Of a DNA stretch of 34,425 nucleotides, positions 574 through 2,322 are shown piece by piece. Numbering within the stretch: position 1 is the stretch's first letter; each line of letters opens with the position of its first letter. Position numbers and translations under genes: made by a program. A model generated the notes under the pieces. That model was not told where the DNA came from. It made no database searches and saw nothing but the letters and a program-made list of their open reading frames with translations. Origin of the DNA: Sistotremastrum niveocremeum HHB9708 (Eukaryota > Basidiomycota > Agaricomycetes > Sistotremastrales > Sistotremastraceae); assembly GCA_001630475.1 (NCBI GenBank), contig KV419446.1:149378-183802 (forward strand), read 5' to 3'.

Positions 574-940
574 AATGGAATTAGTGTTGTAAAATGCAAT
601 CTAATCAGATATTTTACCCAAATTTTGAAATATCGATATCATGATCGATATCGCAATTTCCAAAATCTCAAAATATCTGATCGATATCGCGATATCAATA
701 TTTTTTTCCCCAAACTGTGATATCAATATCAATTTAAATCAGTTTAGATCGCTTTTGCGATAAAAATCGATTTATATTGCAGTTTTTTCTCAAATCCTTC
801 TGTAATCTATTTCCAACCAGTGATATATCATGTTTTTATGCTTCTGTGTTGGTATATCACCTCTTACATGGTGTAGGCAGTGATATGAGTGGCTGGATGA
901 TGCCCTCCTGGGAAGCATGAGCATCTGGGTGACCTGTGAC

Positions 941-1236
941 TAAGGATGAACACGAGTATATACCTGCCCCACCTGAGTATCCACTCATGAGTATTTCAGA
1001 GGAAATTCTAGCCAACCATACCCACTCACTTCCCAAAAGACGGGTACCTACCCAAGTAATACCTGAGTAAAATGGCCTTTTTACCCAGGTACCCCAGGTA
1101 TGGATACCTGTTTTTGACAGTTTTTCTGGGAAAACCCGGGCCAATACCCAGTACCTGTAGAAAGTGAAAAAGGCAGGTACCTACTCAGGTTTATCCATGG
1201 GTACCAGTTTTTTTCCTATACTCGTGTTCATCCTTA
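941..1236. mobile_element. hAT-like MITE, 296 bp, with 8-bp target duplication
   Basis: A perfect 20-bp terminal inverted repeat starts TAAGGATGAACACGAG at 941 and is mirrored at 1217-1236. It is directly flanked by the 8-bp direct repeat CCTGTGAC at 933-940 and 1237-1244. TAAGG fits the hAT terminal consensus. Inside, many copies of ACCTGAGTA, ACCCAGGTA and GGTACCTAC occur in both orientations, as expected of subterminal binding repeats. There is no coding capacity. The perfect repeats and duplication point to a fairly recent insertion. Confidence 0.85.
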
Positions 1237-1330
1237 CCTGTGACTGAGAGTAACATGGGTGACAACTGGCCCCCTGAGGGTGAGAATATGCCTATATATG
1301 AGATATAAGGAGTGAAAACACTGTGATATA

Positions 1331-1882
1331 CAGTCGACTCCCTCTTATCCCATGGCCTTCCGTGGACATCCAATCCTATGGGTTAGTGGAGAGTATGGCT
1401 TACAAGAATAAAATGAATATATATAATATTTTTAAAATGATTTAAATATTATATTTCACGACTTTCTTCACAGGAGATACTGATTACCAGCATTAGTCTG
1501 TCTATCAAGATGTCATTACCGTGCCTCTCGCCTCGTGTTCGGCCATCAATTGGTTTCTCGGGTCAAGATGAGTCGCTAAGGGACGCTAAAAGCTCCGAAA
1601 TGGAATAAAATATTGATTTATATATTGATTTATGGGTTATGGACCTTCAAACAGCGTTCAAAAATCCTATGGGCTACGGGGTATGGCGGGAATATGGGTT
1701 ATCAATTAGGAACCCATAGCGTTCCACCCACAAGCCATGGGATAAGGCGGGTTATGGGTTGTGAGAGCCATGGGAAAGGAGGGAGTCCTTCAGAAAAAAA
1801 TAGACCAGCTAATTCGACTCCTGAGTACTCCTGAGTGCTCAGGAGTCGAATTAGCTGGTCTATTTTTTTCTGAAGTCGACTG
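1331..1882. mobile_element. pogo/mariner-like MITE in a TA target, interrupted by a hairpin
   Basis: The left end is CAGTCGACTCCCTCTTATCC from 1331. The right end read inward is CAGTCGACT followed, after removal of the 88-nt hairpin at 1788-1875, by CCCTCCTTTCCCATGG. The reconstructed 25-bp terminal repeats differ at two positions. TA dinucleotides flank both ends (1329-1330 and 1883-1884), as for Tc1/mariner/pogo elements, whose ends often start CAGT. Internal sequence (about 464 bp without the hairpin) holds more CCCATGG and ATGGGTTAT motifs but no transposase. Confidence 0.7.
1788..1875. repeat. Perfect 38-bp inverted repeat (fold-back element)
   Basis: Arms 1788-1825 and 1838-1875 are exact reverse complements separated by a 12-nt loop. 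The sequence begins CTTCAGAAAAAAATAGACC. It splits the right terminal repeat of the surrounding MITE between GAGTC and TCGACTG, so the dinucleotide TC would be the only duplicated target base pair. It could be a very small fold-back transposon or the product of a rearrangement. The transcript would form a long stable hairpin. Confidence 0.8.
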
Positions 1883-2322
1883 TAGTACAATAGAGGATAT
1901 ATGGGTATTAACAAATGATATATACTGCTATTATGAGCTCCAGATACCCCAAATATCACCTGAAATTGACCCCAGGTTCACCCAAAATCACATCAGTTTT
2001 TATCAGTTTAAATCGATATTTTGCGATATTTTGAAATCTGGAAAGGGCAATAATATCTGATCATGATCACCTCCAAAGTCAGGATATTTGATCGCAAATC
2101 TGATCGCAAAGTGATATGATGTAATCTGATTTGCGATATATTGCGATATTTTATATCTGATCGTTACAACACTAAATGGAATGGCTAATGTATTTCTTAT
2201 ACGGATGGGGCGAGGCTACAGAGGGAATCAAACCGTCTCTGCGACTGGTTCAATGGCTCTGAGAATCTGAGATCACTCAAAATGGGGGAGAAACCGTGCA
2301 CTGGCTGTATTCTGGGGAGTAC

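Follow-up and report, generated by a model that had tools for sequence, protein, structure and literature searches.

A four-level nest of DNA transposons in Sistotremastrum niveocremeum and the probable Plavaka affinity of its innermost hairpin

How do several transposons come to lie one inside another in a short stretch of fungal DNA, and which enzymes would have placed them there? The question is raised by a locus of the basidiomycete Sistotremastrum niveocremeum HHB9708. The window, i.e., the whole stretch of DNA that was analysed, comprises 34,425 nucleotides of contig KV419446.1 (assembly GCA_001630475.1), and the nest occupies its positions 574-2182. Nested MITEs are in themselves common and ordinary. 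A first-pass annotation, made from the letters of this DNA, had described an outer hAT-like element that holds two MITEs, one of them split by a perfect hairpin, and had concluded that at least two kinds of transposase, hAT and pogo/mariner, must have been active in the lineage. The nest was followed up in the host assembly (34.7 Mb, 111 contigs), where at least 86 matches to the nest as a whole were obtained, with 40 of the 111 candidates scored. The nest consists of four levels, each with its own boundaries and with other copies in the same genome. As all the levels recur, and the copies that lack the inner insertions have the expected empty sites, the four-level nest is real.

Boundaries of the levels and their order

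The outermost level is a hAT-type MITE at 582-2174, which measures 1593 bp with its inserts and is delimited by its terminal inverted repeats (TIRs) and target site duplication (TSD). The TIR is the 11-bp TAGTGTTGTAA, present at 582-592 and 2164-2174, and the TSD AATGGAAT is found at 574-581 on the left and at 2175-2182 on the right; these features, like all others of the nest, are given without a strand. The genome search yielded four younger copies (L003-L006), made up of pieces that are 92-95% identical (one piece in L003 has 91%), together with many older ones whose identity is about 70-80%. The 8-bp TSD of the hAT type is present in the window, in L004, L005 and L006, where its sequence differs from copy to copy, and in L074, where two tandem copies have GTGAGATG as a common TSD. 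In L003, the similarity fades in the right part and the right end is lost. No second copy of the flanks of the outer element was found among the loci collected. It was also observed that older copies adjoin matches to the Plavaka domain on the same strand (C9:268048-270503 and C19:477004-478450), which is perhaps another recurrent nest.

Inside this element, at 941-1236, lies a 296-bp hAT-type MITE, whose TIR TAAGGATGAACACGAGTATA matches over 20/20 bp and whose TSD CCTGTGAC is located at 933-940 and 1237-1244. Loci L075-L090 hold 16 complete copies, the window included, and exact 8-bp TSDs flank all but three of them (13/16; L076, L080 and L086 are without). Compared with the majority of the other 15, the window copy differs at 11 of 290 positions and in 6 indel columns, while the others differ at 0-7. 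Two members of this family, L076 and L080 (C4:829598-829887 and C4:830148-830437), are inverted neighbours; the unmatched flanks of one correspond, when inverted, to those of the other, which is expected if recombination inverted the DNA between them.

The second insert in the outer element is a TA-flanked MITE at 1331-1882, with ends of the type CAGTCGACTCCCTC and a length of 552 bp, including the hairpin. The dinucleotide TA stands on its left (1329-1330) and on its right (1883-1884), and it also stands on both sides of the three other copies. The closest of these is on contig C8 (L002; 442/460 aligned positions identical), and two are diverged, namely those on C14 (270/446 aligned positions against the window) and C26. 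When the end pattern was sought with up to 3 mismatches, 8 sites were obtained in the genome, which correspond to seven ends of the four copies and a stray site at C42:223674.

The hairpin that breaks this MITE is an 88-bp element at 1788-1875 with CTTCAG..CTGAAG ends, putatively of Plavaka type. It is bounded by a 2-bp duplication, TC, at 1786-1787 and 1876-1877, which was absent from the first-pass annotation. Its arms of 43 nt are 98% complementary; the hairpin does split the MITE, but it is nearly, not exactly, the perfect one that had been described. Folded as DNA, it reaches -46.3 kcal/mol, whereas the 200 shuffles average -7.3 and none of them is as stable. An Rfam scan of positions 500-2300 gave no match. 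Among nine open reading frames of the window and one Plavaka C-terminal piece, Pfam returned only two weak matches, O-FucT (below the cut-off) and DUF7702.

The order of the insertions is recorded in the copies that escaped them. The younger outer copies (L003-L006) all have a single CCTGTGAC site, without the 296-bp MITE; likewise, the site of the TA-flanked MITE has a single TA in 4/4 and reads GATATAGTAC or GACATAGTAC. The C8 copy of the TA-flanked MITE, on the other hand, retains an uninterrupted right end, GAGTCGACTG-TA, at the position where the window has its hairpin. The nesting proposed from the window alone, with the outer element first, the two MITEs next and the hairpin after the MITE that it breaks, was thus borne out: the TSDs, TIRs and TA flanks are located where they had been placed, further copies were found for each of the levels, the target is single at the empty sites, and the elements were rightly judged to be non-autonomous. 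The mutual order of the two MITEs cannot be read because neither breaks the other.

Candidate enzymes for the hAT-type and TA-flanked levels

The terminal inverted repeats of hAT transposons are short and start with TA or CA, and those of both the outer element and the 296-bp MITE fit this type of start. As the ends of the two elements differ, two hAT sources may be needed. The nest elements resemble hAT MITEs such as the non-autonomous MarorhAT families of Marasmius oreades, so described in the available part of PMC9674265, in their 8-bp TSDs, short TIRs starting with TA, lack of a gene and many copies. In the loci and end-pattern listings searched, the ends of neither element were found at a locus coding for a hAT transposase. 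The ends of the hAT-type MITEs were sought in 20 of the 21 PF05699 loci, with 1.5-kb flanks where the contig allows, and gave no convincing match; only weak ones were seen, such as those in L037 (2 mismatches in 16) and L047 (3 in 18). The end-pattern listings, inspected by eye, contained no pair of ends bracketing any PF05699 match, and, with 2 mismatches allowed, the outer-end pattern suffers from noise, with 40 and 34 sites as compared to 22 and 21 for the control. A 12-kb hAT element enclosing the PF05699 match at C39:43375, with C39:33877 and C39:45960 as its ends, was considered and rejected, since these sites belong to two different end pairs, each with its own spacing of 631 bp.

Pairs of this kind were seen elsewhere too. 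With 1-2 mismatches, the ends of the 296-bp MITE also pair at about 631 and 651 bp on C10, C13, C19, C21, C23, C24, C38, C87 and others, which points to larger relatives. To the right of the nest, the window carries another hAT-type repeat (2323-2827) with the ends TAGGGTTTTAAGGTCC and GGACTTTCAAACTCTA and with no matching 8-bp TSD. An end like its right one, GGACTTTAAAACCCTA, is present about 1 kb downstream of PF05699 in L033 (C66:67248), and this locus is a possible autonomous partner of the repeat.

As for the TA-flanked MITE, it had been attributed to pogo/mariner. The TA duplications agree with this label, but the ends of the MITE were not found in the flanks of six DDE_1 loci, and neither these flanks nor the end-pattern search of the genome gave a transposase locus that carries them. 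Moreover, the fungal transposons PHISTA and ESTA also duplicate TA, according to the part of PMC12730594 that treats them. The MITE is like pogo/Tc1-mariner, PHISTA and ESTA in its TA flanks and inverted ends; it differs in having no link to a transposase in the searches made. Its pogo/mariner identity, therefore, is unproven.

The hairpin family and its probable link to Plavaka

The hairpin of the window belongs to a large family. The genome has 99 forward and 91 reverse sites that fit its end pattern when up to 2 mismatches are allowed, as compared to 0 and 0 for the control. From the loci collected, 34 distinct hairpins of 78-98 bp were assembled; that of the window was included, and each set of flanks was counted once. 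Of the 34, 29 are flanked by an exact 2-bp TSD, when 3.1 are expected by re-pairing the flanks, and five have no matching one. The counts for other lengths of duplication are 1 bp in 7/34 (8.5 expected), 3 bp in 1/34 (0.35) and 4 bp in 0/34 (0.12). The duplicated dinucleotides are of 12 kinds.

Empty sites were sought in the collected sequence by joining the flanks minus one duplicate, and were found for five of the 34 hairpins (L010, L011, L015, L056 and L117); a sixth match, L057_2363, aligns inside an array and is excluded from the count. The L117 hairpin sits in an old copy of the outer-MITE family, and its empty site is in such a copy in L086. That of L011 is found in L016, in a duplicated region where 118/118 flanking bases are identical. 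Of the blocks shared by these two loci, the three longest have 963 bases (99.0% identity), 575 bases (98.8%) and 302 bases (97.7%); two more stretches of L011, of about 494 and 461 bases, have no match in L016. Judged from the identity of flanks and blocks, the L011 insertion is probably recent. The hairpin is, thus, itself a mobile element that has been transposed.

Two further arrangements were observed in this family. At 2313-2440 of L057 (C44), a 78-bp hairpin with the TSD GA lies close to the end of another hairpin, so that a hairpin within a hairpin is seen and, like that of the window, the inserted one is close to the end of its host element. Also, one hairpin with the same flanks occurs at seven places (L105, L106, L109, L112, L113, L114 and L116), where the distance to a contig end is about 1.8-2.1 kb, as part of a subtelomeric repeat.

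Which transposase would recognise such ends? A related family with unequal ends has the same outer bases, CTTCAGAAAAAAWTAG, as the hairpins. Of 60 end sites listed, 56 pair to give 20 elements of 128 bp, six of 129 bp, one of 120 bp and one of 645 bp. A 2-bp TSD was present in five of the seven elements of 128-129 bp that were read (the other two are without), and GG stands on either side of the 645-bp element. The remaining four end sites are unpaired; one of them, C44:2440, is an end of the 78-bp hairpin. It was the unpaired ends that pointed to larger elements on C8, C54 and C40.

The C8 element spans 6515 bp (C8:707362-713876) and is bounded by the same outer bases, with a CTTCAG left end, a right end TTTTTTCTGAAG (CTGAAG) at C8:713876 and TA on both sides. 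On the same strand, it contains matches to PF18759, the Plavaka domain (711053-712050; E 8.2e-17 and 2.8e-72), and its left end lies 3.7 kb upstream of them. Its complete end is shared with the window hairpin over 12 bp only, and its own two ends agree with each other over the first 15 bp only. The end at C54:17772 equals the window hairpin for 20 bp; PF18759 follows it after 3.5 kb, on the same strand, and further on the sequence runs into N. At C40:86346, a CTTCAG end is followed by PF18759 after 5.9 kb, again on the same strand. Among the three, both ends are seen only in the C8 element. In the whole genome, PF18759 has 38 matches at about 23 places after merging, of which these three are tied to CTTCAG ends among the end sites listed. 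Two other CTTCAG ends (C76:59090 and C5:1207028) lack an intact partner end, and their contigs have no PF18759 match; C76:58328 and C76:60488 are, by appearance, damaged or cut hairpins. On C40, two parts of the Plavaka domain (92212-97215) are separated by 4 kb that include a hAT dimerisation match (C40:96431), which may reflect the insertion of a hAT element in a Plavaka gene.

The assignment to Plavaka was made here by PF18759, the same domain by which autonomous Plavaka elements are defined in the relevant portion of PMC8290104. In the available portion of PMC12730594, Plavaka is grouped with CACTA/EnSpm, Mirage, Chapaev and Transib; PlavakaA is given 2-bp TSDs and TGT..ACA ends, and PlavakaB 2- or 3-bp TSDs and CATCA..TGATG ends. 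The hairpins are like Plavaka in their 2-bp TSD, and an element with their terminal bases, that on C8, carries the Plavaka domain. They differ in being gene-free and only 78-98 bp long, and their CTTCAG..CTGAAG ends are neither of the termini published in that portion; they were filed under neither PlavakaA nor PlavakaB. In the literature text searched, Plavaka was not found together with CTTCAG, nor the hairpin end with "transposable element"; figures, supplements and Repbase may record such ends. The CTTCAG-ended Plavaka and the palindromic MITEs look new as compared to the published Plavaka forms. Of the autonomous relatives with the same ends for which the first-pass annotation had proposed to look, the C8 element is a candidate in the case of the hairpin, and none was found for the hAT-type and TA-flanked MITEs in the searches made.

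Other accounts of the hairpin have to be set against this. Template switching or misassembly can yield near-perfect palindromes, and the hairpin of the window does lie within a small palindrome, AGTC|GACT, as would suit a local product of fold-back repair, or an assembly artefact, inside the TA-flanked MITE with no transposon involved. Such an origin is hardly credible here, given that the same ends recur at the 190 forward and reverse sites counted above and that the distinct hairpins have different flanks, mostly with 2-bp TSDs, and five empty sites; as a general account of the hairpins it is ruled out by this dispersed, TSD-flanked family. The original description could also be kept as it was, with hAT and pogo/mariner MITEs and a hairpin that is merely a hairpin. 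The 8-bp TSDs at two levels and the TA at a third agree with it, yet the TSD of the hairpin, its family and its ends, which match those of an autonomous-type element, rule out that it is only a hairpin, and the pogo/mariner identity was not found in the searches made; in its unchanged form, this description is extremely unlikely.

It is improbable, though less so than these two, that a different transposase with a 2-bp TSD, for example, a CACTA/Mirage-like one, moves the hairpins, and that the Plavaka loci merely share terminal bases or carry inserted hairpin-like ends. The published Plavaka termini that differ (in the portion of PMC12730594 referred to above), the majority of PF18759 places not tied to CTTCAG ends among the end sites listed, and the two CTTCAG ends without an intact partner or a Plavaka match on their contig would all fit such an enzyme. 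What speaks against it is the C8 element, with both ends, a TA duplication and the Plavaka domain between them, together with the two unpaired left ends located 3.5 and 5.9 kb upstream of same-strand Plavaka domains. From these shared ends, we infer that a Plavaka transposase moves the hairpins.

The nest is, with good probability, an assembly of four non-autonomous DNA transposons that were placed stepwise by at least three kinds of transposase, the hairpin by that of Plavaka. A hAT-type transposase would have inserted the outer MITE with an 8-bp TSD; a hAT-type transposase of other end specificity would have placed the 296-bp MITE in it, again with an 8-bp TSD; a TA-specific transposase would have added the third MITE; and a Plavaka transposase would then have put the 88-bp palindrome into the TA-flanked MITE, at a distance of 7 bp from its right end, duplicating TC. 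The view that several kinds of enzyme are needed holds, but their count is to be raised: a transposed hairpin with a 2-bp TSD and Plavaka-type ends implies a third kind, and at least three are implied by the nest, not two, with pogo/mariner unproven among them.

A possible origin of the palindromes from a doubled end

How would a Plavaka end have become a hairpin? The arms of the 78-98 bp hairpins match far further inward than do the ends of the C8 element (15 bp), and the 88-bp palindrome would be, in effect, one Plavaka end present twice, head to head. The pairing of the arms was analysed over the outer 32 positions in 33 hairpins (the 78-bp one was left out). Of these positions, 12 vary, and 9 have two or more different Watson-Crick pairs. 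Paired cells number 1013/1056, whereas 500 shuffles, which ignore relatedness, averaged 917 and reached 937 at most; mismatches between the arms are mainly at positions 28-30. The simplest reading of these sequences is that one transposon end was doubled by fold-back copying and that the palindrome then spread. Continued copying from arm to arm is possible but not needed, because an origin from several palindromic founders would account for the pairing counts equally well. A fuller version, in which the hairpins are end-doubled Plavaka elements that are still moved by the transposase, with arms kept matched by arm-to-arm copying and with CTTCAG as a third terminus class, is proposed only tentatively and is rather less likely to be right than wrong.

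An anonymous-looking family of palindromes is now tied to Plavaka, a group that is seldom named in the literature searched. The filled and empty pair L011/L016 points to recent movement of the hairpins. With 88 bp, known ends and a 2-bp TSD, the hairpin is a very small transposon substrate that can be tested, and it suggests that near-perfect hairpin MITEs can come from the doubling of one transposon end.
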